Assembly (NCBI GenBank): GCA_013373325.1
Contig: JABXIA010000120.1
Span: forward strand, 58,443 to 122,442
Direction of reading: 5' to 3'
DNA: 64,000 bases
Source of the DNA: Paracoccaceae bacterium
GTDB taxonomy: Bacteria > Pseudomonadota > Alphaproteobacteria > Rhodobacterales > Rhodobacteraceae
The notes below the pieces were generated by a model, which searched no databases, was not told where the DNA came from, and saw nothing but the letters and a program-made list of their open reading frames with translations. The position numbers and the translations under genes were made by a program. Each line of letters starts with the position of its first letter. The stretch's first letter is position 1. This document shows, in pieces, positions 29,447 through 61,967 of the stretch.

Positions 29447-30097
29447 TCATTGCGCGGCAACTTCCCGGAATCGAGGCAGAAACGCCGGAACATTCTCTGC
29501 ATATCTCTCCCATGCCTCGCCAAACCGGGCCCGACTGTCGGCCTCCTCGCTCTTGGCAAGTCGCGCATACATCCAGACCAGAACCGGGAACATTGCAAGC
29601 GTGAGGATTGTCGGCCATTGCACGAGGAACCCTGCCATGATGAGAGCGAACCCCACATATTGCGGATGCCGTATCCGGGCGTAGGGACCCGTGACCGCCA
29701 GTCGCCCGGCCCGCTGTGCTGCCCAGAGATGGTGCCAGGCCACCGAGATCAGCCAGAAGCCCCCACCGATGAATGCAAAGCTGAGGAAATGGAACGGCCC
29801 GAAATGCGGGTTCGCTTCCCAGCCGAACATCATTTCCAGAAGGTGCCCGCTGTCATGGGCGAACCAGTCAATCCCCGGCCAGTTGGATTGGAGCCAACCC
29901 GACAGGAAAAAGATCGTCAGCGGAAACCCGTACATCTCGACAAAAAGTGCCACGATGAAAGCACTGAATGCGCCGAAGCTGCGCCAGTCACGCGATGTCT
30001 GTGGCTTGAAGAAACTGAACGCGAACAGAATGAAGACCGCCGAATTGATGAACACGAGCAGCCAAAGCCCGTATGACGATCCCGGGTCGCTCGTCAT
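29447..30097 (-). CDS. Isoprenylcysteine carboxyl methyltransferase-like membrane protein
   Basis: GPYARIRHPQYVGFALIMAGFLVQWPT...EEADSRARFGEAWERYAENVPAFLP. Confidence 0.88.
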   Translation of the reverse strand: MTSDPGSSYGLWLLVFINSAVFILFAFSFFKPQTSRDWRSFGAFSAFIVALFVEMYGFPLTIFFLSGWLQSNWPGIDWFAHDSGHLLEMMFGWEANPHFGPFHFLSFAFIGGGFWLISVAWHHLWAAQRAGRLAVTGPYARIRHPQYVGFALIMAGFLVQWPTILTLAMFPVLVWMYARLAKSEEADSRARFGEAWERYAENVPAFLPRFREVAAQ

Positions 30098-30360
30098 TTG
30101 TCATCACCCGATCCGCGGCCGCCATGTCCGCCGTGGCCACCATGACCGCCATGCATGAAGAAATGCATGCCAACACAAAGCAGCAAAGGGAGCCAGATCA
30201 GCAACCCGCTGCCCAGAATGTGCACCCGATGCTCGTAACCCAGCAGTAGTCCACCAAGGATGAGCGCAAAGATCAGGTAGATGCCCGCGCGTGATTTCCA
30301 GAACGAGGGCGGCCTCGGCGGATTGTCATTATCCAAATGTTTTTCGTGATGTCTTGTCAT
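30094..30360 (-). CDS. DUF2933-like small membrane protein with GGH-repeat tail
   Basis: 88 aa, two TM helices, tail HGGHGGHGGHGGRGSGDDK. Confidence 0.75.
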   Translation of the reverse strand: MTRHHEKHLDNDNPPRPPSFWKSRAGIYLIFALILGGLLLGYEHRVHILGSGLLIWLPLLLCVGMHFFMHGGHGGHGGHGGRGSGDDK

Positions 30361-30467: not shown

Positions 30468-32948
30468 TCATACGTCATGTCCCTTGAAAAGAACTCCTGC
30501 GGGCGCGCGACGTCCCTGAACCGCATCGAATTCGGCTTCTGTCAGAAAATCAAGCGCCCGCCGCCCCGTGACATCCGCCGCAGCCGCAAGAACATGCGCC
30601 CAGCTTGATCGGTTGGCGAACAGCATCCCGTTGGTATCGAGTGTACCGCCGCGACCGCAAAACCCGAGGAATTTCGACTTCCGCAATCCGGTATCAAGGC
30701 GGCGGAGGAGACCGCAGAGCGGCTCCGGCCTGGTATGCGCGACAAAAACCCGGGCGCCTGCCGTTTCGGGAAAGAATATTTCGAGCGTCGCGTCGGAGGC
30801 GGTCATCTTCGCCTCATGATCGTCGCGGGGGCTGCGGAACCGTCCCGGCTCGACCATCACGATGACACGGTGCCGCACGCTCTTTTCTTTCAGGCGATCC
30901 GACGCCGTGAGAGTTTCGGCCAGTTGGTAAGCGCCAATGGCGACCAAGATCAATTCCGGGTCATCGCCACCGACATCGCGCAGGCAGACCGCGCCGTCGG
31001 CCAGCGCCCGTTGCGCCAGTTCGGGAGATAGCACGTCTGGAACTTCGCGCTTGGGAACCACCATCGTCCAGATCGCCCCGTGTGATCGAAAGACATCCCG
31101 CAGGCATGCGACGGCACTGTTCCAGTCCACAGGAAACACGACGCGAGAGAGATCGGACATCTCCGCCCACATCGTTTCGGCGGCGGTCGTGTCCTGATGC
31201 GACAGCTCGTTCTTGCCATTTTCCCACGTATGCGAGGTGAGGACAACCGGCAGGCCAAGCCAATAGGGTTGGCGACCTGCGGCGATCAATTGCCGCGTGA
31301 AGATCAAATCCTGGCGCAAAGCGCCAAGCATTTTCGTGGCGAAGGCTTCGTAGGAGACTGCCAGATTGAGACCGCTCTTGTTTCCCAGAACGGCGCATAT
31401 GACGGCTTCTTCGTTAAGGGCTGTTATCACGCCACCGGTCTCGGATTCCGGCATCCCGGGCTCGGGGGCGGTCACACGATGCTTCAGCAGATCTAGGGTC
31501 GCGTTCATCCTGTTGCTGCGCATTTCATCAGGGTTGCCGACGCGGGCGCGCAGGCCGGGATTGGCGAGGACAAGCGCTTCGAAGTATTGGTCGAGACCTT
31601 CCATCGGCGAGACGTTTCTGCGACCCTCAGAGGCGTGCCACGGCGGTTCGGGCAGGCTGGGCGTCACCGCCGGGCGCGAGATCAGGGGATGGGCCCGCTC
31701 CTTGGGACGTCCCGAGGCGTCATGGTTGTTGAGCGCAAGCACCGCATCCGACAGGTCTTTTGGCGGCACCCAGAGGTTCGCGGCACCTTCGTTGAAGTCA
31801 CGGCGGGCGGCCGCGTCGGTTCGCGGATTGCCCTCGAGCGGCAGGTTATGCGCACGGTTCGTGCCGGCGCCGGGAAATCCGAAACCTTTGACCGTCTCCG
31901 CGATGCCGTAGTGTAGACGGATCGCAGGTGCTTCGTCCTTTTCCCGAACGGCCAGGGCATCGGCGGCGAGACGTTCCTCGATCTCAAAGATCGCCCAAGC
32001 GAAGGCTGCCGGATCGCGCCCGTCCAGATCGATCGGATCGAAACCGTTCAGCCGCAGGTGCCGACGGAACCAGTCCACGCCGCCGGATTGCGCCATTGTC
32101 GTGCGCTGGTCGATCCGTCGACCGTTCGCGATCATGATCGGGGCGACCGGCCCGGTGTCTTTCGAACGCCACCAGCGCGGTGCCCAGTCGCTTCCGCGCT
32201 GTTCTTCGAAAGCACCGTCACTCATGAACGCCACAAGATGTTCACCGGGCTGAGGCATGTGCCCGTAGAGCAGTCCGGCAAAGCCGAGATAGCCGCCTTC
32301 GATGAGACCGCCGGCGGTATGCGCGTTCACATGGCTGCCGAGCGCAGATGCGGGGCGTCCCTCGGCGGTGATCTCGTAGGAATAGAAATCCCGAACGAAG
32401 CGCGTCAGGCCGGGATCGGAAAACGAGTATCGGTTCTCCTGTTCGGACGACATGTTGTTGACGATGAGGTTCACCGCGTCGATCGCGGCAACGCAATGCC
32501 CCTGTCCCATCAGCCAGGATCGTGTCATGCCGCCAAGCGCGTTTGCAGCCAGATAGCCGACATAGGCTGGAACCATGTTGAGCGACCCGCCGGTATGACC
32601 ATCGGGACCGGCTTTGAAATCCTCGGCGTCAAGCGGTGTCCCGTCCGTGCGCACGTTTCGCGCATAGGTCATATGCACCACGAGCCACATTGCCGCCTTC
32701 GTGATGCGATCTGCTGCGGCGAGGATACGCCAGGCTTCGGCCCTGTCGCGCACTCGCCCGCGACGCTCGAGAATATCGACCATGTCGTGGACCCGCACCT
32801 GTGTCAGGTCGTCATGGGCCGCAAGACCCGCGCCAAGCACCCAATCCGCAAAGGCCGGTTCGTTGCCACGATAGAGAGCGGCCCGATCCCTTGTCCGCAC
32901 TTGCCCGGCGGCCGGCGTCTCCAAGTGCCTGTTGTGGTTTTCGGACAT
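30468..32948 (-). CDS. Phosphoketolase (Xfp) family protein
   Basis: 826 aa; GHTGGSLNMVPAYVGYLAANAL, MGQGHC, GGYLGFAGLLYGHMPQPG, SDGAFEEQRGSDWAPRWWRSKDTGPVAPIMIANGRRID. Confidence 0.85.
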   Translation of the reverse strand: MSENHNRHLETPAAGQVRTRDRAALYRGNEPAFADWVLGAGLAAHDDLTQVRVHDMVDILERRGRVRDRAEAWRILAAADRITKAAMWLVVHMTYARNVRTDGTPLDAEDFKAGPDGHTGGSLNMVPAYVGYLAANALGGMTRSWLMGQGHCVAAIDAVNLIVNNMSSEQENRYSFSDPGLTRFVRDFYSYEITAEGRPASALGSHVNAHTAGGLIEGGYLGFAGLLYGHMPQPGEHLVAFMSDGAFEEQRGSDWAPRWWRSKDTGPVAPIMIANGRRIDQRTTMAQSGGVDWFRRHLRLNGFDPIDLDGRDPAAFAWAIFEIEERLAADALAVREKDEAPAIRLHYGIAETVKGFGFPGAGTNRAHNLPLEGNPRTDAAARRDFNEGAANLWVPPKDLSDAVLALNNHDASGRPKERAHPLISRPAVTPSLPEPPWHASEGRRNVSPMEGLDQYFEALVLANPGLRARVGNPDEMRSNRMNATLDLLKHRVTAPEPGMPESETGGVITALNEEAVICAVLGNKSGLNLAVSYEAFATKMLGALRQDLIFTRQLIAAGRQPYWLGLPVVLTSHTWENGKNELSHQDTTAAETMWAEMSDLSRVVFPVDWNSAVACLRDVFRSHGAIWTMVVPKREVPDVLSPELAQRALADGAVCLRDVGGDDPELILVAIGAYQLAETLTASDRLKEKSVRHRVIVMVEPGRFRSPRDDHEAKMTASDATLEIFFPETAGARVFVAHTRPEPLCGLLRRLDTGLRKSKFLGFCGRGGTLDTNGMLFANRSSWAHVLAAAADVTGRRALDFLTEAEFDAVQGRRAPAGVLFKGHDV

Positions 32949-32966
32949 CCTGATTTCCCTGCTTCT

Positions 32967-33869
32967 CTAGTCGATGCTTGTGCCCGCTCGCACCCCAAGC
33001 GACCCGAATGCTTCAGCCAGAACGTCGGCGATTCCGATCGCATTCGATGGATGCGGTATGGTGTCGGTGGTGATGATCCTTGCGGCACCGGCTGCCAGAA
33101 TGTCATCATGTGCGGAACCGGCGAAAACCGCGTGGATCACGAGGCACACCGGCGCGCGGCTGCCCGCCGCAACGAGCCGTTCAATGGTGCGCACCAAGGT
33201 CCGTCCCGAAGAGGCGATATCGTCCAGGATCACGGGCGTGCCATCGCGCAACACGGCACTTTCCGGCACGCTGACCTCGACCTGACGGTCGCCGGTCCGG
33301 ACCTTGCGCAGCACTTCATAGGGCCGTCCGGCCAGCCGGGCCACCTCGGCCACCCATTGCTGGCTTTCGCTATCGGGGCCCAAAAGAACAGCGTCGGGCA
33401 GGTTAGTCTTGATCCAGTTTGCAAGCAGTGGGGCGGAAACGGCGCGCACCGCTGGGATCGGGAAAACCTCCTCCAGCCGAGCGATCCGGTGCAGATGCGG
33501 ATCGACCGTCACCAGCCAGTCGAAACTTTCACCCAGGAAGTGCGCGAAAAGCCGCGCGCTGACCGCCTGCCCAGCCTCGAAACGGCTGTCCTGCCGCATG
33601 TAACCGAGATAGGGTGCGATCAATCCGACGCGGCGCGCGCCCATCTCGCGGGCCGTCGCCGCGGCGAAGCGCAACGGCAGCGCATGATGGTCTGGATTGC
33701 GTAATGTCGCCAGGAGCGCCACGTCGGCCCCGTCCAGATCGCCCGGCAAGGTCATCAGGCTTTCGCCATCGGGGAAATGGTGCCAGTCGAGCGTGCGCAA
33801 TTCCGCCCCCATCGCGAGTGCCAGAGTTTCGGTCAGTAGCTTCATTTCGGGAAACGGTATGAGGATCAT
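32967..33869 (-). CDS. prs: Ribose-phosphate diphosphokinase
   Basis: VILDDIASSGRTLVRTIERL PRPP loop; PYLGYMRQDSRFEAGQAVSARLFAHFL. Confidence 0.9.
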   Translation of the reverse strand: MILIPFPEMKLLTETLALAMGAELRTLDWHHFPDGESLMTLPGDLDGADVALLATLRNPDHHALPLRFAAATAREMGARRVGLIAPYLGYMRQDSRFEAGQAVSARLFAHFLGESFDWLVTVDPHLHRIARLEEVFPIPAVRAVSAPLLANWIKTNLPDAVLLGPDSESQQWVAEVARLAGRPYEVLRKVRTGDRQVEVSVPESAVLRDGTPVILDDIASSGRTLVRTIERLVAAGSRAPVCLVIHAVFAGSAHDDILAAGAARIITTDTIPHPSNAIGIADVLAEAFGSLGVRAGTSID

Positions 33870-35374
33870 GGGCCCTCCTCGGACAGCGTGAGAACCCCGG
33901 TTTGGGATTCGGCATAGGCCAGGGCATAGGCCAGTTCGCCCGCTGTCTCGGCATGGAGTTCATAGAGCGGCTGGCCCTCGTCCACCCGGTCGCCCAACCG
34001 CACCAGCAAGCGAATGCCTGCGCATTTCTGACGCGGCGCGCCTGCCAGCTTGGCGATGCGGGCGATCCGGCGGTTATCCACGGATGTCAAAAGGCCCGCG
34101 TGGGGGGCGTGTATCTCGATCCGCTGCGCCGCCGTTCCGGGTTCCCGGAACCCGCCCTGCGCCTCACAGATCGCCATGAACCTGGCCTCAGCCGCGCCGC
34201 TATCCAGCAGAGCCCGGGCCCGGTCTCGTCCCTGCCCCGCCACGCCGTCGGGAGCGAGGTCCAGAAGATGCCCGGCCAGATCCAGCGCCCTTTCGCGCAG
34301 GTCCGCAGGCGCATCGGGCGCGCGTCGCAGGACCGCCAGCACGTCGATGGCTTCCAGCGTCGGGCCGATGCCGCGCCCGACCGGAGCGATGCCGTCGCTG
34401 ATATGCAGCGCCAGGTTCAGACCCAACGCATTGCTGACCGCTGACACACGGACGCCGAGTGCCTCGGCAGCCTTCTCAGAGCGCACCTTGGCCGTGGGTC
34501 CGACCGGCATGTCGATCAGGACATGCGTGGCACCCGCCGCGGCCTTCTTCGACAGTACGCTTGCCACCAACTGACCGGTCGAGTCGAAATCAAGCGGGCG
34601 TTCGACACGAATGAAATGATCGTCGGCGGGGCTGAGGGCGAGCCCGCCACCCCAGACGATGCACCCGCCTTCTGCTTCGACTACCCTGCGCAGCGCGGCG
34701 GCGTCGAGCGCAACGGGTGCCATGGCCTCCATCGTGTCGGCCGTCCCTGCCGGCGACGTGATCGCACGGCTGGACGTCTTGGGAATCAGGTGCCCCGCTG
34801 CGGCGATGATAGCAACCACGATCGGCGTCGTTCGATTGCCCGGCAAACCGCCGACGCAATGCTTGTCGAGAATGGTCCGCCCTCCCCAGTCGAGCGTCTG
34901 CCCGGCGCCCTGCATGGCGCGGGTCAGTGCCACGGTCTCGGGCTCATCCAGCCGCTCACCCGCACAGGCGGTGACGAAAGCGGCAAGCTCGAGATCGGAC
35001 AGCCGGCTGTCGAGCGTGTCGCTCACGATTGCCGCGAACCCAGCCTGATCCAGCCTGTCGCCATAGGCTTTCGACCGGATCATCGACGCGGAAACGGGCG
35101 GTTCGGGATGAGAAAACGCTCCCTTGTCCCCTGCTCGCGCACCAAGCGCCGCCCAAGCCGAGGCGGACAGCGCCGCCTGATCCACGTCAAGCCACGCTCC
35201 GCGGCCAACGACATTCAGGGTTGCGATGATCCAACGGTCCTCCAGGTCGATCCGCACACGGGTCTGGGCCGCGAACCCGTCGGAGCGACAGATGTGGCAG
35301 TCTTCGTTCATATAGACGACCGGTTGCCGGTAGGTGTCGATCCCGGCGGGGACAAGAGCAAGCGTATCGGTCAT
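33866..35374 (-). CDS. Thymidine phosphorylase / AMP phosphorylase family (about 500-aa class)
   Basis: DKHCVGGLPGNRTTPIVVAIIAAAGHLIPKTSSRAITSPAGTADTMEAMAPV; extra N-terminal domain. Confidence 0.88.
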   Translation of the reverse strand: MTDTLALVPAGIDTYRQPVVYMNEDCHICRSDGFAAQTRVRIDLEDRWIIATLNVVGRGAWLDVDQAALSASAWAALGARAGDKGAFSHPEPPVSASMIRSKAYGDRLDQAGFAAIVSDTLDSRLSDLELAAFVTACAGERLDEPETVALTRAMQGAGQTLDWGGRTILDKHCVGGLPGNRTTPIVVAIIAAAGHLIPKTSSRAITSPAGTADTMEAMAPVALDAAALRRVVEAEGGCIVWGGGLALSPADDHFIRVERPLDFDSTGQLVASVLSKKAAAGATHVLIDMPVGPTAKVRSEKAAEALGVRVSAVSNALGLNLALHISDGIAPVGRGIGPTLEAIDVLAVLRRAPDAPADLRERALDLAGHLLDLAPDGVAGQGRDRARALLDSGAAEARFMAICEAQGGFREPGTAAQRIEIHAPHAGLLTSVDNRRIARIAKLAGAPRQKCAGIRLLVRLGDRVDEGQPLYELHAETAGELAYALAYAESQTGVLTLSEEGP

Positions 35375-36753
35375 CGCGGCCGGTCCAGATAGACGGATTC
35401 GAGGTGCTCCGGGACGCGCACGGATCGTCCAAGCTCGTGTTTGACGCGAAATCTCAGGGTGTCCGCAGCCGAAGGTTCCCCGTGGGTCAGATAGGTCATC
35501 GTGGGTGCGGGACCGGCGGACATCCAGCGCAGGATTTCGTCGGCATCGGCATGCCCGGAAAAGGACTGGAGCTGAACCACTTCGGCCTCGATCGGGAACT
35601 CTCGTCCGAACATGCGCAAGGTTCGCGCGCCATCGGCCAGCACCGCGCCACGTGTTCCGCCGGCCTGAAAGCCGGACAGCAGGATCGTGTTCCGCCTGTC
35701 GCCGCCAAAGCTTGCCAGATGGTGCAGGATGCGCCCGCCGGTCAGCATTCCGCTGGCGGAGACGATGATCATCGGGCCCTGGCGCGTGTTCAGATCCTTC
35801 GATTGCTCGACCGTGTTGACGCGCTTGGCAATCTCGAACATCGCGACGCAGTCTTCGCGGCTGACGTGATGCTCTGCGTGGTGGCGGTGATAGATATCGG
35901 TCGCATCCACGGCCATCGGGCTGTTGAGGAACACCGGTACATAGGGAATGTCCCCCCGCGCCATGAGCCGCGCGATATGCAGCATCACCCCCTGCGCCCG
36001 TCCGACCGCAAATGACGGGATCAGTACCGTGCCGCCACGGGCAAACGTGCGCTTCAGGACTGGGGCCAGTTCGGCCTCGGGGTCGGTATCGGGATGGGAG
36101 CGATTGCCGTAGGTGGATTCGCAGACCAGCACATCGGCTCCACCGAACGGTTTCGGCGGCCGCATCAGCGGATCGGGATCATGGCCCAGATCGCCGCTGA
36201 AATGGACGACCCTGTCGCCGATCTCGAAACGGATCTGGGCGGCGCCCAGAAGGTGCCCGGCCGGGATGAAACGGGCGGCGACCCCGTCGCCGAGGTCGAT
36301 CCTCTGATCGAAGCCATGCGGCCGAAGGCGTTCCAGCGCCGCCTCTGCATCCTTGAGCGTATAGAGCGGTTTGGGGTTCTTGTGTTTGGAAAACCCCCTC
36401 CGGGCGGCAAAGCGCGCCTCTTCTTCCTGAATGTGTCCGCTGTCGGGCAGGATAAGCCCGCAAAGGTCTGCTGTCGCCTCGGTGCAGTGGACCCGGCCGC
36501 CGAACCCCGCCCGGATCAGCGCCGGCAGGTATCCCGAATGGTCGAGATGTGCATGTGTGAGCAGCACAGTGTCGATCGTGTTCGGACGCACGGGAAACGT
36601 TTTGCGGTTGCGTTCTCGCAGGTTCTTGAACCCCTGGAACAGGCCGCAATCCACGAGAATGCGCCGTCCCATGGCCTCGATCAGATAACGCGATCCCGTC
36701 ACGGTCCCGGCGGCACCCAGAAAGCGTAGTTTCGGACGTGTGATTTGTGTCAT
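35371..36753 (-). CDS. MBL-fold beta-CASP metallo-hydrolase
   Basis: LTHAHLDHSGYLP, VCESTYGNRSH, IIVSASGMLTGGRILHHL, SGHADADEIL. Confidence 0.93.
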   Translation of the reverse strand: MTQITRPKLRFLGAAGTVTGSRYLIEAMGRRILVDCGLFQGFKNLRERNRKTFPVRPNTIDTVLLTHAHLDHSGYLPALIRAGFGGRVHCTEATADLCGLILPDSGHIQEEEARFAARRGFSKHKNPKPLYTLKDAEAALERLRPHGFDQRIDLGDGVAARFIPAGHLLGAAQIRFEIGDRVVHFSGDLGHDPDPLMRPPKPFGGADVLVCESTYGNRSHPDTDPEAELAPVLKRTFARGGTVLIPSFAVGRAQGVMLHIARLMARGDIPYVPVFLNSPMAVDATDIYHRHHAEHHVSREDCVAMFEIAKRVNTVEQSKDLNTRQGPMIIVSASGMLTGGRILHHLASFGGDRRNTILLSGFQAGGTRGAVLADGARTLRMFGREFPIEAEVVQLQSFSGHADADEILRWMSAGPAPTMTYLTHGEPSAADTLRFRVKHELGRSVRVPEHLESVYLDRPR

Positions 36754-36755
36754 GC

Positions 36756-37115
36756 CTAAGTCTCCCTATTCGCGATGGCGTTGAAGAGCCCGCCGAAGAT
36801 CAACGCGGCATACCAGCCATAGAGAAAGCTCTCGACCAGACCGACGATGAAGCCAAGCGGTGTCAGCCAGACGAACCCTGGCAGCAGGCCGGACCAGGTC
36901 TGGTACATCGCATAGCCGGGAAAGATCAGATCGAACGCGATGCAGACCAGATAGGTCACCGCCAGAAACAGGCTCAGCGCCCAGCCCAGCGGCACAAGTG
37001 GCAGGCGCGCGCGCCCCGTCGCGGTATCCGCGCCCATGACACATGCCCCGCACGTCATGCGCAGGGCCAGGAAAAGGATCGCCGCGACTGCGGTGAAATA
37101 GATGATAGGCATCAT
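36756..37115 (-). CDS. Conserved small membrane protein
   Basis: 119 aa, about 3-4 TM helices, near-contiguous with the MBL gene (stop-to-start spacing). Confidence 0.65.
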   Translation of the reverse strand: MMPIIYFTAVAAILFLALRMTCGACVMGADTATGRARLPLVPLGWALSLFLAVTYLVCIAFDLIFPGYAMYQTWSGLLPGFVWLTPLGFIVGLVESFLYGWYAALIFGGLFNAIANRET

Positions 37116-37224: not shown

Positions 37225-37389
37225 TCAGTGGCCGCAGCAGCAGCCGGATTTGGCCGGCGTCTCCTTGGCGGATTCCGTGACGCGCGGCTCGGGCTTGGCT
37301 TGGCCCTGCGCGTCGGATTTGCCGCCGCAACATCCGGTCGATTTCTCGGCGGCGCTGGCTTGCTTCGGGGTATTGGAAAGACTGTCCAT
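37225..37389 (-). CDS. Cys-rich 54-aa protein
   Basis: MDSLSNTPKQASAAEKSTGCCGGKSDAQGQAKPEPRVTESAKETPAKSGCCCGH; not in the supplied ORF track; purine-rich upstream (ggaggtcc). Confidence 0.6.
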   Translation of the reverse strand: MDSLSNTPKQASAAEKSTGCCGGKSDAQGQAKPEPRVTESAKETPAKSGCCCGH

Positions 37390-42701: not shown

Positions 42702-44465
42702 TCACTCCTTGTTTGGTATGGCGGTCGGTTGGCCCGCTTGTGTGGTGGTGGCGATGGGGAAACTGCCGTACATCGCGCCAAAGACATGTGTGAGCCATGC
42801 ATCGCGCGCTTTGCGCAAGGCACCGAGGTTTTCGCCGGTACGCGCGAACAACGCGCGTTCGGCAAGGATGGCGGGATGGTCTTTCGGCAGAGGATCCCGC
42901 GTCTCACGCACGGAGTCGGCTGTGGATTTCACCAGCGCCATCCAAGGGTTCACACGCTCGGAAAACATCGTTCTGGTCCATCGCATCGGATGCAGGGCGC
43001 GCAGCATCTCGGCACTGGCAGGGGACGTCGCGGCCTTGATCCAAGGGCTAACAAATGTCGAATAAGCCGCCTCGTTGATCCGTGACATCTGCGCGACCTG
43101 GGCCAGCGCTCCATGGTCTGACCCAAAACCGAGATCGTCGACGTCGCGCGGCTCGAAACGCACGTCGTAGTCGTCGGTCTTGCGCTTTGCGCCCCCGGAA
43201 GGATTATCGATGACCATCTCATAAAGCCCGGGCGCCAGCGCCTCGACCGCCTCCAGGCTTTCCAGGATCGCCCGATGCTGAAGCCGCGCGACGGACCCGG
43301 AGACGAAGATGCCCAGATGCCCGACAGTCTCGTGCGTCATGTAGACGATGCGCTGTCCGGCAGCCTTGAGCGCATCGGTGTCAGGATATAGCTTGGCAAT
43401 CCAGCCCAACGCCTGCTGCGGCGGGGTGATGTTGTCGCCCTCCGAGGCAAAGACGATGATCGGGTTGCGGATCCGTTTCAGATCGATGGTACAATGCGCG
43501 TCCAGTTGCATCTCGCCCTGCTCCAGTCGATTGCCGATGAAAAGGTTCTGAGTGATGCCGAGAATTTCCTCGCGGCTCAGCGTATAGTAGCCATTCCACC
43601 AGCGTTCGAAGTCGAGGAACCGTTCACGTTCGGTATCGGCATGGGAAAAGAGGTTGGCGTATTTCTCCCAGATCGCCTTTTCAGGTTGCAGGGTCTCGAA
43701 GTTCTGCGCCAGCCACGCGCCGTCGAACCGCCCGTCGCCCAGATCGGCGATCATGTGCGCCGCCCAGGATCCGCCCGAGAGCGCGCCGAGCATCCGCATC
43801 GGGCTGGTGGCCGCGTCGCCCGACCAATAACTGAGCGGAGAGCCGTTCAACACGATGGGCCCGGTCAGACCGTCGCAATCGGCGGCCAGCAGGGCGGCGG
43901 CCCAACCGGCCTGACAATTGCCGTAGAGCACGGGTGCCGCGTTCGGGTGACGGCGGGCGACTTCGGTGACGAAGTCACGCAGTGCATAGTGTACGTCAGC
44001 CAGCGTCTGGCCGGGCATGGGTTCTGGAAAGAAGATCACGAAATAGACCGGATGGCCCTCGTGCATCGCCATGCCGACTTCGCTGTCATGCTTGAAGCCG
44101 CCGATACCCGGCCCATGTCCCGCGCGCGGATCAATGACGATGACCGGCGGCTTTGCCTCGTCCACGCAATCGTCCCAGCAATCTTCGCCTGCCCGCGTGA
44201 TCCGGAGCAGTGCATAATTGGCGGGCCGTTCAAAAGTGCGGGCATCCAGCAGAAGCTCATAGTCGAAATCCAGAAGCGGCGGCATGCCCTGACGTTCATG
44301 TGCGATCATGTTGTCGGCGCGTTCGCGTAACGTGTCGAGGAACAGCACCCAGCGTTCAAAGGCGTCCTGAGCGTAGGGCACATTGGCACCAGCGGAGGGC
44401 CGTTTAGTCTCAGGTGCCGTAAGTTGCTCCGGCGTCACAGTCGCAAGGCGCAAGCTCTTATTCAT
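42702..44465 (-). CDS. DUF3141-type alpha/beta-hydrolase-like protein
   Basis: PVIVIDPRAGHGPGIGGFKHDSEVGMAMHEGHPVYFVIFFPEPMPGQTLADV; PVLYGNCQAGWAAALLAAD. ATG at 44465 overlaps upstream stop (ATGAATAA). Confidence 0.85.
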   Translation of the reverse strand: MNKSLRLATVTPEQLTAPETKRPSAGANVPYAQDAFERWVLFLDTLRERADNMIAHERQGMPPLLDFDYELLLDARTFERPANYALLRITRAGEDCWDDCVDEAKPPVIVIDPRAGHGPGIGGFKHDSEVGMAMHEGHPVYFVIFFPEPMPGQTLADVHYALRDFVTEVARRHPNAAPVLYGNCQAGWAAALLAADCDGLTGPIVLNGSPLSYWSGDAATSPMRMLGALSGGSWAAHMIADLGDGRFDGAWLAQNFETLQPEKAIWEKYANLFSHADTERERFLDFERWWNGYYTLSREEILGITQNLFIGNRLEQGEMQLDAHCTIDLKRIRNPIIVFASEGDNITPPQQALGWIAKLYPDTDALKAAGQRIVYMTHETVGHLGIFVSGSVARLQHRAILESLEAVEALAPGLYEMVIDNPSGGAKRKTDDYDVRFEPRDVDDLGFGSDHGALAQVAQMSRINEAAYSTFVSPWIKAATSPASAEMLRALHPMRWTRTMFSERVNPWMALVKSTADSVRETRDPLPKDHPAILAERALFARTGENLGALRKARDAWLTHVFGAMYGSFPIATTTQAGQPTAIPNKE

Positions 44466-44817
44466 TGTTGGCTTCCTTCTGTTCATAGATTTCTCTGGAT
44501 GGCCGCCCTGCAAGAAGCGCAAGTGCGAGGTTCTTTGCGACATCCTCGCGCAGACCGGTCAACAGGTAGGCCGCATCACCGGGCTTGAGGCCCAGTGCGC
44601 GCGCCGCTAATTCCGGGGGTTGCTTCAAGATTTCCATGCGCTGGAACAACGCCAATGCCATCGGGGCGTCTGGATGCGCGGAGGCCTCTGCACAATTGCA
44701 TATCATCCGCGACATGAACTCCGGAACGGCGGCATTCCGCGACGGTTCCGTTGCTCCCGAACGAAAATTCGTCGTCTCCCGTGGCATGATCCCAGTCCTC
44801 CTGCTGTGCTGGCCCAA
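44458..44817 (-). CDS. Small CxC-motif protein downstream of ECF sigma factor
   Basis: PEFMSRMICNCAEASAHPDAPMALALFQRMEILKQPPELAARALGLKPGDAAYLL; homologous to 61596-61904. Confidence 0.65.
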   Translation of the reverse strand: MGQHSRRTGIMPRETTNFRSGATEPSRNAAVPEFMSRMICNCAEASAHPDAPMALALFQRMEILKQPPELAARALGLKPGDAAYLLTGLREDVAKNLALALLAGRPSREIYEQKEANNE

Positions 44818-44879: not shown

Positions 44880-45506
44880 TCAGGAATTCTGCTGCCCTGC
44901 TTCGCAATCGGTTTCGTGCTCGGCGTTCTTGCAACCCTCAGGCTGACAATAGCAATCGTCACGGTCATCCCGGCAGCAAGCGCCACAATGATTTGTCAGC
45001 GCCTCGCGCAGAGCCGTGCGCGCCCGGTGTAGCCTAACGCCAAGCGCGTTGCGGGTTAGTCCAAGGTCGCGCGCCACATGCTCACGGTCTTCTTCGCCGA
45101 AGTCGATGCGCCGGATCAGTTCCGAATCCGCCGGGCGCAGTTCGGAAATCAGACCGCCATGACAGGTGCAGAGCCGTGCCATCTGAGTCGGCGCATCAGC
45201 GGTCCAGTCTTCCGGCTCGCGCGCCACCGCCGCGGCCAGTTGGTCACGGCGCGTGCCTTTGCGGAAATGGTCATTCAACGTGGAGCGCAGGATCGCATAG
45301 AGCCAGGCATCCATCCGTTCGACGTCTCTGAGTTGGTCCTTGCGCTGCAGCACGCGGATGCTGAAATCCTGCAGGACATCCTCTGCATCCGCCCGGTTGC
45401 CAAGCCGTTTGATCAGGAACCCCAGAAATGCGCCACGTCCATCGAGCAACGCACGTTCCGTCGAGGTGTTAGGTACCTTCGGTTTTTCGGTGTCGAGCGA
45501 TGCCAT
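44880..45506 (-). CDS. ECF RNA polymerase sigma factor with CxC linker and Cys-rich C-terminal tail (CorE-like)
   Basis: sigma2 RLGNRADAEDVLQDFSIRVLQRKDQLRDVERMDAWLYAILRSTLNDHFRK; LCTCHG; tail HCGACCRDDRDDCYCQPEGCKNAEHETDCE. Confidence 0.9.
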   Translation of the reverse strand: MASLDTEKPKVPNTSTERALLDGRGAFLGFLIKRLGNRADAEDVLQDFSIRVLQRKDQLRDVERMDAWLYAILRSTLNDHFRKGTRRDQLAAAVAREPEDWTADAPTQMARLCTCHGGLISELRPADSELIRRIDFGEEDREHVARDLGLTRNALGVRLHRARTALREALTNHCGACCRDDRDDCYCQPEGCKNAEHETDCEAGQQNS

Positions 45507-45731
45507 GACATTCCTGTCCTAATTTTCCGATATTTGCACTGTTGTCGACATGATCATCGCGTCGAGCGTGTTCAATGCTTGCAGGCGTTCACACAGATCA
45601 AATTCGCCATGCTCCGTCCCGCCGTATCGAAGGCCAAGACCCACTCTTCCCCTCTGCTAGGAAGCCTCTCACCAACCTTGTCCACAGTCACCAGGCCACA
45701 TCAATCTATTGATTTAGCGAATTATATCCTA

Positions 45732-46628
45732 TTATGCTCCGCTTTTCTGGCTTTGCGTTCTACCGCTGAGATTGACGAGAACTATACCCGCAATGACCAA
45801 TACGATCCCGGAAAACTGCACGGCGGAAAGACGCTCGCCAAAGAACAGTGCCCCGATGGTGAGACCGAATATCGGCACCAGGAAGCTGAACACAATCGCC
45901 CGGTTCAGTTCCACTTCCTCCAGTACCGAAAACCACAGCCAGTAAACCAGTGCAGAGCCAAACAAGGCCAAGCCCAACAGCGACATTACGAAAACAGATG
46001 TCCATTGGATGGCCGTCTGATCTTCAAGGAGAAGCGCCGCCACGGCAAGAGGCACGCTGCCGATCAGCATCTGAAAGCCCATTGCAAAAAGTCCATCGAC
46101 CTGACCTGCGATGGATTTGATCGCCACGTTGCTGACAGTCACTCCAACCGCAGCCAGAACGATGTAGGCAAAACCGATGGCCGTCCCGTCTCGCGCTCCA
46201 TCGCCCAATTGTGGCAAGGCGATCACAAGTATTCCCGCGAAACCGATCAATAGGCCACCCCAACCGACCCTCGCCAGTCGCTCTCCAAGCCATGCAACGC
46301 CCAACATTGTCGCAAGCAGCGGCTGAGCGTTGGCGATAACCGTGGCGAGCCCGGGAGATACAAATTCTGCCGCATGAAACATGCCGAGAAATCCCAGACT
46401 GGTCGCGCCAAGGCCGACGACACCCAGTGTCACCCACGTGCGCCAACCACGCGGAAACGGCCGCTGCAGCCACACCGCAACAAACACCAGGGTGGCCGCA
46501 GCCAGAATTGCCCGCAGTGTCGCAAAGGTCAAATGCGGCGAATATTGCAGCCCTGCCGTGATCAGCGGAAAGCACGCCGCCCACAAGAGCATGGCCAGAA
46601 CGATCTTGGTTATTGTCGTCGGCGACAT
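45732..46628 (-). CDS. EamA/DMT-family transporter
   Basis: Two EamA halves, about 10 TM helices, LLWAACFPLITAGLQYSPHLTFATLRAILAA. Confidence 0.93.
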   Translation of the reverse strand: MSPTTITKIVLAMLLWAACFPLITAGLQYSPHLTFATLRAILAAATLVFVAVWLQRPFPRGWRTWVTLGVVGLGATSLGFLGMFHAAEFVSPGLATVIANAQPLLATMLGVAWLGERLARVGWGGLLIGFAGILVIALPQLGDGARDGTAIGFAYIVLAAVGVTVSNVAIKSIAGQVDGLFAMGFQMLIGSVPLAVAALLLEDQTAIQWTSVFVMSLLGLALFGSALVYWLWFSVLEEVELNRAIVFSFLVPIFGLTIGALFFGERLSAVQFSGIVLVIAGIVLVNLSGRTQSQKSGA

Positions 46629-46791
46629 CGGGATTTCCTTTTTTCAGGTCAGAACCGGCTGGAATTGCGGAGATCTTCCGGCGTGCCAAGTCAGTGTAGA
46701 ATGATAAGTTTTTCTCGTAGTTGATGATCGCAGTCGCAAGTGTCAACAATTGCGGTGCGGCGGCTTGGCGACAGTGATTGGACGAACCAAA

Positions 46792-46898
46792 CAGACGTTT
46801 CAGCGACTGAAACCTTACTGGTTATTAAGACAAACGTCTGATGACCTGTGCTTTATGAGTTCCAGGATGCACGTATAATGAAAGAAACGCAGACGTTT
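46792..46898. promoter_or_regulatory. CAGACGTTT repeat cluster with nested inverted repeat upstream of ECF sigma gene
   Basis: CAGACGTTT at 46792-46800 and 46890-46898, reverse complement at 46832-46840, nested GTTTCAG-CGA-CTGAAAC at 46797-46813. Confidence 0.4.
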
Positions 46899-47612
46899 GT
46901 GGCAGACGGTGTAACGCATCCGACTTACGAGCGTCGTATTTTGCAGAGGTGTGTGATGAAAAATGACCAAGGCGACAAATTTTCCTTAGTTGACCAGTCC
47001 GACGTCGCTGCAAAATCCACCGACGCGGCCGTTCGCCACGCGTTGGTGGAAGGCAGACATCAAATTCTGAAATTCCTGCGTCGGCGACTGGGTGATCCAG
47101 AGGCGGCAGAGGATGTCCTGCAAACATTTATGCTGCGGGCCATCGACCGCTCAGAGCAACTTCGTGATGTGCGCGCCGTTCGCGGCTGGCTCAGTCAGAT
47201 CCTTGCGTCGTCCATAGCGGACCATGGCCGCAAGGTTTCGCGACAGCGACAGAGGGAGGTGGTCATGGCCCCGACCGACCTGGAAGGCGTCCATCACGAT
47301 TTTGACGAAGAACTGGACGAGGTTATCTGCAATTGTCTCTACAAGTTGTTGCCAACGCTCAAACCGGAATATGCCGAAGTCATCTGGCGGGTCGATCTTC
47401 AGGAACAACCGCGAGAGGACGTCGCCAAAGACCTTGGGATCACGTTGAACAACCTCAACGTCCGCGTTCACCGGGGCAGGCAGGCATTGAAGACAAGGTT
47501 GCAGCAGATGTGCCTGACCTGCCCGGTTCACGGCTTTCTTGATTGCGATTGCGACGCGGCAGAGAAGGTCCGCGCCCGCCTCGAAGGCCTTGCGGACGAA
47601 AGCGAAATCTGA
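46878..47612 (+). CDS. ECF RNA polymerase sigma factor with CxC linker and Cys-containing tail
   Basis: RRRLGDPEAAEDVLQTFMLRAIDRSEQLRDVRAVRGWLSQILASSIADHGRK; VICNCLYKLLPTLKPEYAEVIWRVDL; tail MCLTCPVHGFLDCDCDAAEK. Start uncertain (46848, 46878 or 46956). Confidence 0.88.
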   Translation: MKETQTFVADGVTHPTYERRILQRCVMKNDQGDKFSLVDQSDVAAKSTDAAVRHALVEGRHQILKFLRRRLGDPEAAEDVLQTFMLRAIDRSEQLRDVRAVRGWLSQILASSIADHGRKVSRQRQREVVMAPTDLEGVHHDFDEELDEVICNCLYKLLPTLKPEYAEVIWRVDLQEQPREDVAKDLGITLNNLNVRVHRGRQALKTRLQQMCLTCPVHGFLDCDCDAAEKVRARLEGLADESEI

Positions 47613-47938
47613 AGAACACGCAGAACCGCGGAGCGATCCTCGGAGCTTTAATGCTGCTGCCTTACACGCGTGCCTGAGACCGAAGCCGCAATCGAAAGAT
47701 GATCACGATCGCGTTTGATAAGTCGTGGGCTCATGTCCTTCGGCGAACAATAGGCTGCAATCGGGCAAATGTGTACCGAAAGCGCTTGGACCGATACGCC
47801 CAATCGGCGCTTTCCTGCTTTCAGGTGCCGACGCAATATGGCTGCGCGCTGTAACAAACACTAGCGCCGGTCGTCTTTTTGAGAGCCGGGGTCGTTCGAT
47901 GCCCCTTCCAAACTCAGACAAACGCGGAGGCACCGATC

Positions 47939-49279
47939 ATGTCCAACAGCGAAATCCCACCTGATGAGCAGTTTGAATTGCATGACGGCGCGAGGCAGCT
48001 TCCACGCCTTGGACCCGGAAGGGCCGCGATGTGGTTACTTGCCAAATTGCTCAGCCGTCTGGTTCGGAACGGTCACCTGACTGTTATCGACCCCTGTTGT
48101 GGGACTTGGCGTTTCGGTGGCGGTGACGGCCCTGCCGTTTCAGTCCGATTGACCGACAAGGCGCTGCCTGCGCAACTTCTTGCAAACCCCAGTCTGGCGC
48201 TTGGCGAGGCCTATATGGATGGAACGCTCCGCATCGAGACCGGCAGCCTGCGCGACCTTCTTTCGATTTGCATGGCTGACCTCGACGCCGTCGACGCTTT
48301 GCCCGGGAAACGGATCAGGCAAGGGCTGGACGCTTTTTTGAGCCGCAGGTTGCATCACAACCCGATCAACCGGGCCCGCTGCAACGTGGCGCACCACTAT
48401 GATCTCTCGACCGAACTCTACGACCTCTTTCTTGACGCGGACCGACAGTATTCATGCGCCTACTTCGCCACAGGCAATGAAACTTTGGACGAGGCGCAAG
48501 CCCTCAAGAAACGACACATCGCTGCAAAGCTGCTGCTGCGGCCCGGCCTTGACGTTCTCGATATCGGCTCGGGCTGGGGGGGCTTGGCGCTGGAGCTTGC
48601 CCAACAGCATCAGGCCCGCGTGACCGGTCTGAGCCTGTCTACCGAACAGATCGTGGCCGCCCGCGCCAGCGCAACGCAGTCCGGCCTGTCCGAACAGGTC
48701 GCCTTTAAACTCCGCGACTACCGGCAAGAGAAAGGCCAGTATGACCGTGTCGTTTCGGTGGGCATGTTCGAGCATGTGGGCCGCAGTGGATTTGATGACT
48801 ATTTCAGCACGATCCGAAGGGTTCTCAAGCCGGATGGAGTCGCGCTTGTACATGCGATCGGTACGATGGCACCCAAAGGTGGCAGCGATGCGTGGATCAG
48901 GAAATACATTTTCCCCGGTGGCTATCTTCCGTCACTGTCCGAAACGATCTCGGCGGCGGAACGTTCTGGGCTTTGGGTCACCGATGTCGAGGTCCTGCGC
49001 CTGCATTATGCAGAGACCCTGCGGCACTGGTCCGAACGCTTCGCAGCCGAGCGCGGGACCGCGCGGAGGCTTTACGACGAACGGTTCTGCCGCATTTGGG
49101 AATTCTATCTGGCTGTCTGCGAAATGGCATTCCGGCATGGCCGGTTGATGGTGTTCCAGCTCCAGTTGGCCAAACGCCGCGACACCGTTCCGTTGACGCG
49201 GAATTACATCGCGGACGCTGAGGCAGATCACCACTGCCACATCAGGGCACTCGGCAAACAAATAGGGAGAGCAAGATGA
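47939..49279 (+). CDS. Cyclopropane-fatty-acyl-phospholipid synthase family methyltransferase
   Basis: VAHHYDLSTELYDLFLDADRQYSCAYF; LDIGSGWGGLALELA; SVGMFEHVGRSGFDDYF. Confidence 0.95.
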   Translation: MSNSEIPPDEQFELHDGARQLPRLGPGRAAMWLLAKLLSRLVRNGHLTVIDPCCGTWRFGGGDGPAVSVRLTDKALPAQLLANPSLALGEAYMDGTLRIETGSLRDLLSICMADLDAVDALPGKRIRQGLDAFLSRRLHHNPINRARCNVAHHYDLSTELYDLFLDADRQYSCAYFATGNETLDEAQALKKRHIAAKLLLRPGLDVLDIGSGWGGLALELAQQHQARVTGLSLSTEQIVAARASATQSGLSEQVAFKLRDYRQEKGQYDRVVSVGMFEHVGRSGFDDYFSTIRRVLKPDGVALVHAIGTMAPKGGSDAWIRKYIFPGGYLPSLSETISAAERSGLWVTDVEVLRLHYAETLRHWSERFAAERGTARRLYDERFCRIWEFYLAVCEMAFRHGRLMVFQLQLAKRRDTVPLTRNYIADAEADHHCHIRALGKQIGRAR

Positions 49280-50331
49280 CAGGCAAAGGGCAAATCAAGG
49301 TCGCCGTGAACGGATACGGTGTGATCGGCAAGCGCGTAGCCGACGCGGTGGCCGTGCAGGCCGACATGGACCTGATCGGCGTGGCGGATGTCGTGGCCGA
49401 CTGGCGCGCCCGGATGCCGGCAACCAAGGGCTTTGCCCTCTACGCTGCAGACCCGGAACGGGAATCCGCGATACAAAAGGCCGGCCTGAACCTCGCCGGC
49501 GGCTTGGACGATCTGTTGGCCGCCGCCGACATCGTGATCGATTGCACGCCGAAAAAGATCGCCGCTCAGAATGTGGAAACATACCGCGACAAAGGCATCC
49601 GTTTCATCGTTCACGGCGGCGAAAAACACAGCGTAACGGGCCATTCCTTTGTCGCCGAAGCGAATTATGAAACGGCGCTCGGGCGCGACAGCACCCGTGT
49701 CGTGTCCTGCAACACGACCTCGATCGTCCGCACGCTGAGCGCACTCAAACGGTCCGGCCTGCTTGGCTCGGCGCGCGGAACGCTGCTTCGGCGCGCCACT
49801 GATCCATGGGAAAGCCATCTGGGCGGGATCATGAACACGCTCGTTCCCGAACCCGAAATCCCTAGCCACCAAGGCCCCGATGCGCAAAGCGTCGATCCCG
49901 ACCTTGACGTGATCACGATGGCCGTCAAGGTGCCCCAGACCCTTGCGCATTTGCACTACTGGTCCGTGAGGATGCCGCGCAAGGCATCAAAGGATGAGGT
50001 GCTGGACGCATTCTGCGCGTCGTCCCGCATTGCTCTGATCCGGATGTCGGACGGGCTGGGTGCAATCAACGCAGTCAAGGAGATGATGGCCGATCTCGGG
50101 CGCCCCAACGACAGCCTCTACGAGGTGGCCCTGTGGGAGGACATGCTCAGGGTAGAGGGCGACGAGTTGTTCTATGCCTATATGGTCGACAACCAGGCTA
50201 TCGTGATCCCCGAGACCATCGACGCGATCCGTGCCCTAACCCAAGCTGAGCCAGACGGAGCCGCATCGATTGCGCGCACGAATGCGGCGCTGGGTGTCGG
50301 TGCGTTTGCGGCCAACACACCGACGCGTTAG
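49276..50331 (+). CDS. Type II (archaeal-type) glyceraldehyde-3-phosphate dehydrogenase family
   Basis: KVAVNGYGVIGKRVADAVAVQADMDLIGVADVVADWRA; IDCTPKKIAAQNVETY; VVSCNTTSIVRTLSAL catalytic Cys; RATDPWESHLGGIMNTLVPEPEIPSHQGPD. Confidence 0.9.
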   Translation: MTGKGQIKVAVNGYGVIGKRVADAVAVQADMDLIGVADVVADWRARMPATKGFALYAADPERESAIQKAGLNLAGGLDDLLAAADIVIDCTPKKIAAQNVETYRDKGIRFIVHGGEKHSVTGHSFVAEANYETALGRDSTRVVSCNTTSIVRTLSALKRSGLLGSARGTLLRRATDPWESHLGGIMNTLVPEPEIPSHQGPDAQSVDPDLDVITMAVKVPQTLAHLHYWSVRMPRKASKDEVLDAFCASSRIALIRMSDGLGAINAVKEMMADLGRPNDSLYEVALWEDMLRVEGDELFYAYMVDNQAIVIPETIDAIRALTQAEPDGAASIARTNAALGVGAFAANTPTR

Positions 50332-50365
50332 CAAGAGGCACTGAGGACTGAATTGGCGTGACTGA

Positions 50366-51136
50366 TCAGCCCGCCGCCATGCCCCCGTCGACGGGATATT
50401 GCGCTCCGGTGATGAACGCGGAATCGTCGGAGGCGAGGAAGAGGACGAGGTTGGCGATATCGAGGCTTTCGCCATAGCGACCCAGCGGGATCGTATCGGA
50501 AAGCTGCTGCTTTACTTCATCGCCGCGACCGGGATTGAAGCCTTCCTCCAGCGACCGCATCATCCGGGTGTTGACCGGCGATGGATGCACGGAATTGACC
50601 CGCACGTTGTGGCCCGCCGCCTCGATCGCAGCCGCGCGCGTCAGGCCGACTACGGCATGTTTCGACGTGATATAGGGCGCGACGTTTGGGCTGCCTTTGA
50701 GACCCGCAATGGACGACATGTTGATAACGCTTCCCGATTTCCGTCCGATCATCACCGGCAAGACATGCTGCAATCCAAGGAATGCGCCGCGCACGTTGAC
50801 TGCCATCACGCGGTCGAAATCCTTGATCTTCTGATCGATCAGTGGCGCGACCTTGCCCTCGATCCCGGCGTTGTTGAAGAACACGTCGATGCGTCCGAAT
50901 TTCTCGACGGTCTGCGCGACATATCGTTCGCAATCCTCGACCGACGATACGTCGGCCGCGATTGTCAGCACATCGCCCGAATTTCCAAGATCCCTCGCGG
51001 TATCCGACAGATCACTTTCCCTGAGGTCGACAAGCGCGACCTTGGCACCTTCGCTGAGAAAGAGCCGCGCGGTTTCCAGACCGATACCAGCTGCGCCCCC
51101 GGTGATCAGGGCGACTTTGTCGGCGAGACGTTTCAT
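50366..51136 (-). CDS. Short-chain dehydrogenase/reductase
   Basis: ALITGGAAGIGLETARL; NNAG; PYITSKHAVVGLTRAAAIEAA. Confidence 0.93.
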   Translation of the reverse strand: MKRLADKVALITGGAAGIGLETARLFLSEGAKVALVDLRESDLSDTARDLGNSGDVLTIAADVSSVEDCERYVAQTVEKFGRIDVFFNNAGIEGKVAPLIDQKIKDFDRVMAVNVRGAFLGLQHVLPVMIGRKSGSVINMSSIAGLKGSPNVAPYITSKHAVVGLTRAAAIEAAGHNVRVNSVHPSPVNTRMMRSLEEGFNPGRGDEVKQQLSDTIPLGRYGESLDIANLVLFLASDDSAFITGAQYPVDGGMAAG

Positions 51137-52071: not shown

Positions 52072-52073
52072 GG

Positions 52074-53075: not shown

Positions 53076-53089
53076 GGGGTTTCCTTTTG

Positions 53090-54316: not shown

Positions 54317-54340
54317 CTGCGGTAACTCCTATGTATTCAG

Positions 54341-58191: not shown

Positions 58192-58402
58192 TGCTGGCTC
58201 CTGTCGATTAATCCTTGCGGTCGCGAAGGACCGTCAGGGGAATAGACGTTGCCAGGCATCGGACGTTACAGTGTCCGGCGAAAATCTTCGCAGGCACTGC
58301 CGCTGGTGTCACCCATGAGACGGTAACGCTTTACGTCCACTCGCGTCAGTATTTCCGTATGGCGCGCACTGGCGCAGGGTCGGGCAGCCTGGGACCAACC
58401 AA

Positions 58403-59302: not shown

Positions 59303-59367
59303 TCGGCGAGTTGCCCCCGACGTGCGATTGCGCTCAGTTGCAGTCACCCAGGAAACATCCCTGCAAG

Positions 59368-60210: not shown

Positions 60211-60399
60211 CCGGCGTTCAATCGTGCCGCTTTAGCCTCTGCGCCCGCGTGACTGCCGCGGCGACGCGGAGCAGGCCTTCCGCCTCCTGTTTTTGGGGGG
60301 AGCCGGACCAATCCTGCGGCTGACGATTTGCATTCTTTTCAAGGCTGTAGAAGTCGCTTACGTTTGGAAACAGAGAGTAGGCCTGAAAAGGAAAATGCC

Positions 60400-61904: not shown

Positions 61905-61967
61905 ACGATCCTCCCGAGCGGCTTCTGCATGAAGACGCCGTTTGAAGCGCAGCATTACAAAATCGCC

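Follow-up and report, generated by a model that had tools for sequence, protein, structure and literature searches.

The four-gene operon at positions 30,468–36,753 of the 64,000-nt window (the whole stretch of Paracoccaceae bacterium contig JABXIA010000120.1 that was analysed) is built on a core triad, comprising a likely beta-CASP RNase, a phosphorylase and a paralogue of PRPP synthetase (PRS), to which a phosphoketolase-like gene is added as a replaceable cassette. We give about an even chance to the reading that this is a mobile accessory module with which cells short of oxygen or energy catabolise and recycle nucleotides derived from RNA. Gene content, conserved gene order, residue signatures, the absence of ribose-1,5-bisphosphate (R15P) isomerase and the linkage to acetate kinase were established directly. 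To our knowledge, no enzyme activity has been reported for any of the four subfamilies.

All four genes lie on the minus strand, and the tight packing described in an earlier note, with 4-nt overlaps among the last three genes as it listed them, was confirmed together with its reading frames and coordinates. The metallo-beta-lactamase (MBL) gene (35,371–36,753; 460 aa) heads the triad, followed by those of the phosphorylase (33,866–35,374; 502 aa) and the PRS paralogue (32,967–33,869; 300 aa). Both junctions are 4-nt ATGA overlaps, and an 18-nt gap precedes the phosphoketolase-like gene (30,468–32,948; 826 aa). The transcription unit is likely longer than four genes, since a DUF5676 membrane protein gene (36,756–37,115, minus strand), probably co-transcribed with the MBL gene, stops only 2 nt upstream of it, and genes for a DUF2933 membrane protein (30,094–30,360, minus strand) and an overlapping ICMT-like methyltransferase (29,447–30,097, minus strand) lie behind the phosphoketolase-like gene. 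The DUF5676–MBL order is identical at loci L003, L004 and L012, and the synteny of the methyltransferase is kept at the loci of relatives. Upstream of DUF5676, a 54-aa Cys-rich protein (CCGG...CCCGH; 37,225–37,389, minus strand), annotated as 'hypothetical' in L003 and L004, is probably metal-binding, as judged from its sequence. The type II (archaeal-type) GAPDH previously placed near 49.3 kb is indeed present, above its cut-offs (49,276–50,331, plus strand), on the same island but outside the operon; 9 of the 58 loci with full flanks have such a gene no more than 10 kb away from the phosphorylase.

The operon sits on a conjugative-plasmid island that is 98–99.9% identical to Sulfitobacter and Paracoccus plasmids. 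Records from Proteobacteria, Bacteroidota and Planctomycetota contain the triad with the same overlaps, and relatives of the phosphorylase are encoded at at least 565 places in one genome collection, with the PRS paralogue mostly adjacent in the loci examined. The PRS gene immediately follows the phosphorylase gene in 64 of 77 loci (46 of 58 once dereplicated), the MBL gene immediately precedes it in 48 of 77 (32 of 57 once dereplicated), and most junctions of both kinds share an identical 4-nt overlap, which argues that the clustering is not due to chance. An adjacent PRS is missing in 12 of 58 dereplicated loci, which counts against our best reading; a Pfam search for substitute neighbour genes at the PRS-less loci gave unrelated families only. 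A copper ATPase often adjoins the triad and occupies the fourth position in close relatives; the phosphoketolase may thus have come along as a passenger.

The phosphorylase passes the bacterial 'thymidine phosphorylase family' model NF003338 (631 bits, cut-off 434) and reaches 432 bits against the AMP phosphorylase model TIGR03327, under the cut-off of 535, as do its relatives (475–506 bits). It is 43% identical to the AMP phosphorylase of T. kodakarensis, and residues S194, A196, T198, S199, W233, G235, P282 and K288 of that enzyme are kept in 86–88 of 88 bacterial members, while S. aureus pyrimidine-nucleoside phosphorylase (PyNP) and human thymidine phosphorylase (TP) differ. This archaeal active-site signature fits the earlier placement in the long class to which archaeal AMP phosphorylase belongs, and the protein looks like an NMP phosphorylase rather than a thymidine phosphorylase. 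The RefSeq names 'thymidine phosphorylase' and, for the 826-aa protein, 'xylulose 5-phosphate 3-epimerase' are probably misleading.

The beta-CASP protein contains the Pfam domains Beta-Casp, RMMBL and Lactamase_B, with an HxHxDH motif that is invariant among family members, and its nearest solved relative is the ribonuclease TTHA0252 (E 2e-69). The domain set and motif agree with the possible RNase function suggested before, and the protein is likely a Zn ribonuclease. A CRISPR-related role was considered and rejected: the best NCBIfam model, the type VII nuclease Cas14, scores far under its cut-off and has only the beta-CASP family in common.

Genome-wide questions were answered by family searches only, in a host genome that is 90.5% complete. 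The earlier note had seen neither RuBisCO nor R15P isomerase in the window, and the family searches found neither in this genome. R15P isomerase scored over its cut-off in none of 289 Alphaproteobacteria, although 41 of these have a phosphorylase that passes its own cut-off, nor in any of 40 phosphorylase-bearing genomes, while the same search was positive in control archaea. Both R15P isomerase and MtnA were rejected as the missing step, because the host IF-2B protein is MtnA-like and adjoins a class II aldolase, and 21 of the 40 carriers have no member of that family; RuBisCO was rejected because the host genome has none. The proposed analogy to the archaeal AMP pathway is thus supported for the first step, where the phosphorylase signature makes nucleotide phosphorolysis likely, and fails downstream.

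The PRS paralogue is the candidate for the step from R15P to R5P or PRPP. It passes NF005537 (370 bits, cut-off 322) and TIGR01251 (169 against 113), its fold matches archaeal PRS (TM 0.88), and it retains the PRS catalytic residues D166, K189, R191 and the R5P loop. All 69 operon-encoded PRSs examined carry PDxES (GPDxES), followed by QW, in place of the canonical PDxG(G/A) of the pyrophosphate loop, and the housekeeping PRS of the host has PDVGG. A more specific proposal, to which we attach a small chance, is that the paralogue would act not as a PRPP synthetase but as a ribose-1,5-bisphosphate:AMP phosphotransferase (R15P + AMP -> R5P + ADP). Such a reaction would amount to reverse PRPP synthetase chemistry minus one phosphate, which the altered PDxES loop would favour. 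Standing in for both R15P isomerase and RuBisCO, it would complete a bacterial pathway that leads from RNA through NMP, R15P, R5P and Xu5P to acetyl-phosphate, with the high AMP levels of starved cells as the driving force.

The four family calls of the earlier note agree with ours, with the reservation that the 826-aa protein falls far under every NCBIfam phosphoketolase cut-off (best PRK05261 subfamily score 130 bits against 777) and scores 131 bits with Pfam XFP. Its profile nevertheless aligns over a long stretch with true phosphoketolases (E 4e-31), which, with an XFP-like fold and acetate kinase linkage at other loci, upholds its identity as a divergent, phosphoketolase-like protein, as judged from homology and modelling. 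The top 20 PDB matches of its AF2 model are phosphoketolases (E 1e-27 to 1e-31, TM ~0.70); the AF2 models were built from few sequences, and with a moderate pLDDT of 78 and weak active-site loops, the overall fold alone was used from this one. Of the 13 XFP active-site residues listed in PMC10547157, ten are identical and show no variation; fixed N368, N577 and K579 stand where B. breve has Q321, Q546 and H548, and R442 is variable. Acetate kinase occurs at 10 of 23 loci with a phosphoketolase versus 1 of 35 without (Fisher p 2e-4; 6 of 12 versus 1 of 30 once dereplicated, p 1e-3), and at two loci, L045 (Thiobacillus) and L058, the genes next in line after that of the phosphorylase encode acetate kinase and a true phosphoketolase. 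This linkage supports acetyl-phosphate as an output. The ATP recovery proposed in the earlier note is, by way of acetyl-phosphate, unproved for this host, because acetate kinase is missing from the 90.5%-complete genome in family searches and Pta alone was found.

Taken as a route, the beta-CASP protein would, by its family, degrade RNA to 5'-NMPs, and the phosphorylase, by its active-site signature, would convert NMP and Pi to free base and R15P. R15P would then be turned into R5P or PRPP without isomerisation to RuBP, most likely by the PRS paralogue of the operon or else by PhnN of the host. Homology and linkage suggest that the phosphoketolase could convert R5P/Ru5P/Xu5P to acetyl-phosphate and glyceraldehyde-3-phosphate, the former yielding ATP where acetate kinase adjoins, or acetyl-CoA via Pta in this host.

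A less likely alternative, though the strongest of the rivals, is nucleotide salvage rather than energy catabolism, in which R15P would become PRPP through PhnN or the PRS paralogue, the bases would be re-used and the phosphoketolase would serve another island function. The host encodes PhnN above its cut-off, adjoining phn transporter/lyase-type genes, the paralogue retains the PRS catalytic residues named above, and the phosphoketolase-like gene, replaced by the Cu-ATPase in relatives, is missing in 149 of 150 sampled family members. However, the host already encodes a housekeeping PRS, and phosphoketolase or acetate kinase adjoins the phosphorylase in unrelated loci, two of them without an intervening PRS. 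It is rather improbable that the operon is an ordinary (deoxy)nucleoside phosphorylase operon feeding thymidine or uridine phosphorolysis into the pentose-phosphate pathway. The RefSeq/NF003338 name and the fold shared with TP/PyNP at ~30% identity would suit it, but TIGR02643, TIGR02644 and NF004490 (TP and PyNP) give 137, 173 and 178 bits against cut-offs of 571, 409 and 269, the discriminating residues side with AMP phosphorylase, and the genome encodes a separate, ordinary TP-family phosphorylase.

We doubt still more that the genes share no pathway and were gathered as unrelated useful functions on a plasmid island for copper and low-oxygen stress. Genes for copper efflux, a multicopper oxidase, a CusF-like protein, the Cys-rich protein, NhaA and arginine deiminase do lie in the window, and the Cu-ATPase is a frequent neighbour of the triad; yet the 4-nt overlaps are maintained across phyla and acetate kinase is enriched beside the phosphoketolase. 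It is hardly credible that the operon belongs to a bacterial version of the archaeal pentose-bisphosphate (AMP) pathway whose R15P isomerase and RuBisCO are encoded at other sites in the genome: the first enzyme type is alike and a type II GAPDH lies close by, but the searches described above speak against both downstream enzymes, and the aldolase beside the host IF-2B protein points to MtnA.

Expression data from Bradyrhizobium diazoefficiens may bear on the conditions of use in the preferred reading, a nucleotide catabolism or recycling module. In the portions of PMC6515984 and PMC9104804 available to us, bll3117-bll3116-bll3115 (annotated thymidine phosphorylase family, PRS and MBL) and a second operon, bll2518-bll2517 (phosphoketolase and acetate kinase), are FixK2 targets; bll3117, bll3115 and bll2518-2517 drop strongly in a fixK2 mutant, and products of the triad-like operon are induced by microoxia. 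By analogy, this FixK2-dependent microoxic expression fits the energy limitation proposed in the earlier note. The likeness is one of product annotations; MBL comes last, the genes form two separate operons, and those portions put forward no pathway. Upstream of the operon in the window we found no convincing FNR/FixK box. Exact boxes precede 5 of 76 homologous operons versus 1.7% of control stretches, and FNR/FixK regulation was rejected as a general rule because allowing one mismatch left no enrichment. The low-oxygen lxa locus of Burkholderia was also set aside, as the literature searched does not name the operon's genes there.

Should the phosphorylase make R15P, oxygen-limited bacteria could dispose of nucleotide ribose without RuBisCO, and the four proteins of this single operon would offer a direct way to test which bacterial enzyme uses R15P. 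The preferred reading, if true, would also explain why, on plasmids and stress islands, the module is accompanied by genes for acetate kinase, arginine deiminase and copper defence.

Among known systems, xylulose-5-phosphate/fructose-6-phosphate phosphoketolase (XFP) resembles the 826-aa protein in fold, ThDP/catalytic residues and acetate kinase linkage, at only ~20% identity and with the three replacements given above. The archaeal-type (class III) and bacterial PRPP synthetase classes of PMC13252144 share with the paralogue the fold, metal-binding Asp, K-x-R flexible loop and R5P loop, and differ in having PDxG(G/A) where the paralogue has its invariant PDxES and QW. The haloarchaeal non-carboxylating pentose bisphosphate pathway (R1P kinase, R15P isomerase, RuBP phosphatase and aldolase; PMC9700705) likewise represents nucleotide ribose catabolism without RuBisCO, but employs the R15P isomerase that the phosphorylase carriers lack. 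With the archaeal NMP shunt, or pentose bisphosphate pathway (T. kodakarensis TK0352, R15P isomerase and type III RuBisCO), the operon shares the phosphorylase superfamily branch, the active-site signature and the likely product R15P; where the archaeal system has R15P isomerase and RuBisCO, the phosphorylase is here linked with the PRPP-synthetase paralogue and a beta-CASP nuclease, and at some loci also with phosphoketolase and acetate kinase.

The operon is a real, conserved and mobile module whose parts are ordinary and whose combination is new; its central step, from ribose-1,5-bisphosphate (R15P) to ribose-5-phosphate (R5P) or PRPP, is still a candidate assignment. The four genes lie on the minus strand exactly where the earlier note placed them. 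In transcription order, a beta-CASP MBL nuclease (35371-36753) is followed by a phosphorylase (33866-35374), a PRPP-synthetase paralogue (PRS; 32967-33869) and an 826-aa phosphoketolase-like protein (30468-32948). The first two junctions are 4-nt overlaps (ATGA), and the phosphoketolase-like gene starts 18 nt after PRS; from this spacing, we infer co-transcription. A DUF5676 gene (36756-37115) ends 2 nt ahead of the MBL gene and is preceded by a 54-aa Cys-rich ORF (37225-37389; CCGG...CCCGH) kept in related plasmids, and DUF2933 and ICMT-like genes lie downstream of the phosphoketolase-like gene. Because related plasmids retain the complete order, from the Cys-rich ORF and DUF5676 through the ICMT-like gene, the transcription unit may comprise eight genes rather than four.

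Among 80 species-level loci with the phosphorylase, PRS lies directly 3′ of it in 64 of the 77 with enough sequence and MBL directly 5′ in 48 of 77 (46/58 and 32/57, respectively, after dropping loci whose phosphorylases are >90% identical), with a most frequent spacing of -4 nt at each junction. The phosphorylase-PRS pair also occurs in records of Bacteroidota and Planctomycetota. A phosphoketolase, divergent or true, is found within 10 kb of the phosphorylase in 23 of 58 full-flank loci (12/42 dereplicated). Acetate kinase is present at 10 of these 23 loci vs 1 of the 35 without phosphoketolase (Fisher p 2e-4; dereplicated 6/12 vs 1/30, p 1e-3, related loci being not fully independent). L045 (Thiobacillus) and L058 have no intervening PRS: there, acetate kinase and a true phosphoketolase come next after the phosphorylase. 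A Cu-ATPase takes fourth place in Roseovarius-type loci; loci with a copper ATPase directly after PRS are L012, L015-L023, L040, L049 and L056. This varied content beside a conserved triad makes the fourth gene an exchangeable cassette and the triad the core.

The phosphorylase exceeds the cut-off of NF003338, the bacterial 'thymidine phosphorylase family' (631 vs 434 bits), is below that of AMP_phos TIGR03327 (432 vs 535 bits) and is far below cut-off in all thymidine and pyrimidine-nucleoside phosphorylase (TP/PyNP) models. It shares 43% identity over 397 aligned residues with the solved T. kodakarensis (Tk) AMP phosphorylase; human TP and S. aureus PyNP are more distant, at about 30%. At active-site positions that differ between archaeal AMP phosphorylase and TP/PyNP (Tk S194, A196, T198, S199, W233, G235, P282 and K288), several of them probably AMP-binding per UniProt annotation, 86-88 of 88 bacterial members carry the archaeal residue. 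This archaeal-type identity, the active-site residues and a separate TP-family protein in the host genome (C347) argue for a predicted NMP phosphorylase activity, which we consider probable, and the nucleotide phosphorolysis proposed earlier gains support at the sequence level. The T. kodakarensis NMP phosphorylase was itself formerly misannotated as thymidine phosphorylase (PMC8376864).

RefSeq names the family of the 826-aa protein 'xylulose 5-phosphate 3-epimerase', which is probably wrong for a divergent phosphoketolase. An hhalign comparison (E 4e-31, 23% identity) matches it to true phosphoketolases along most of the sequence, and the top 20 PDB matches of its model are phosphoketolases, followed by transketolases. 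PMC10547157 lists 13 active-site residues, ten of which are identical here and do not vary across the family alignments; in place of Q321, Q546 and H548 the family has fixed N, N and K. Together with the acetate-kinase linkage, these features support acetyl-phosphate as the predicted output, tell against the epimerase name and agree with the phosphoketolase originally claimed. Pta is encoded in the host genome (409 contigs, 90.5% complete), in which no acetate kinase was detected. The divergent phosphoketolase is rare, with one carrier among 289 sampled Alphaproteobacteria and one among 150 sampled host-family members, both being this genome. For the MBL nuclease, Cas14 of type VII CRISPR systems is the top-scoring NCBIfam model, at 340 bits vs a cut-off of 800; this identity is rejected, the match reflecting only the common beta-CASP family, and is a trap for automatic annotation.

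R15P, the expected phosphorylase product, is without an archaeal-type outlet. The earlier note had extended an analogy to the archaeal AMP pathway and proposed a genome search for its enzymes, which went against it: the 90.5% complete host genome has no RuBisCO, and no R15P isomerase exceeds the cut-off in 289 Alphaproteobacteria (41 with a phosphorylase over cut-off) or in 40 phosphorylase-bearing genomes. The conversion of R15P to R5P or PRPP is thus a pathway hole. MtnA as a general substitute is ruled out because 21 of those 40 genomes lack any protein of the R15P isomerase family. On host contig C354 (L002), an MtnA-like isomerase gene adjoins a class II aldolase gene, candidates for a DHAP shunt or methionine salvage. 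The host also encodes PhnN, which in E. coli converts R15P to PRPP.

Within the operon, the obvious candidate for this step is the PRS paralogue (300 aa), whose model matches archaeal PRS (TM 0.88). Critical residues of human PRPS1 are D171, K194, R196 and T225 (PMC12238573), and many bacterial PRPS classes have been described in a preprint (PMC13252144). Operon-type enzymes retain the metal-binding Asp, the K-x-R flexible loop and the R5P loop. The host's housekeeping PRS has the usual PDVGG loop, in place of which the operon PRS and all 68 others from such loci carry GPDxES. The residues following the metal-binding Asp are presumably the pyrophosphate loop, and the invariant acidic residue at this place suggests that the donor or acceptor has changed. 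On a novel and more speculative reading, the paralogue might catalyse R15P + AMP -> R5P + ADP, in effect the PRS reaction run backwards with one less phosphate.

The operon region is plasmid DNA. Positions 25000-49990 match a Sulfitobacter dubius plasmid at 98.4% identity across 99% of their length, S. faviae at 97.6% and, over 13.8 kb, a Paracoccus sediminicola conjugative plasmid at 99.7%; for positions 45000-64000, identity to the S. dubius plasmid is 99.9%, and the left part of the window matches plasmids bearing type IV secretion genes. The operon's neighbours include genes for copper efflux, a copper oxidase, NhaA and a type II GAPDH, as well as an arginine deiminase pathway and its transporter. 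Genes for arginine deiminase, ornithine carbamoyltransferase, an amino-acid-kinase-family protein (carbamate kinase?) and a YfcC/DcuC-type carrier (51133-55810) form a plasmid-borne fermentative arginine pathway on the same island. One protein (12410-14611) joins a CusB-like adaptor to four CusF-like matches, and a large DUF3141 protein (42702-44543) recurs near the triad in L014-L018, L020, L048 and L086. This island recurs, its gene positions unchanged, in L067-L070, L072 and L073 (Achromobacter, Hydrogenophaga, Pseudomonas rhodesiae, Pigmentiphaga, Burkholderiales), indicating recent transfer between orders.

No convincing FNR/FixK box lies upstream of the window operon, nor are such boxes general upstream of homologous operons. 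FixK-affected genes of Rhodopseudomonas palustris include a putative phosphoketolase (PMC3050613). Two Bradyrhizobium diazoefficiens reports (PMC6515984, PMC9104804) annotate bll3117-3116-3115 as thymidine phosphorylase family, ribose-phosphate pyrophosphokinase and MBL, give bll2518-2517 as a phosphoketolase-acetate kinase operon, and place both among microoxia-induced products and FixK2-dependent genes. Energy limitation, the setting first suggested for the operon, is likely and fits these microoxia-induced, FixK2-dependent Bradyrhizobium operons, which resemble that of the window in annotated names and operon structure.
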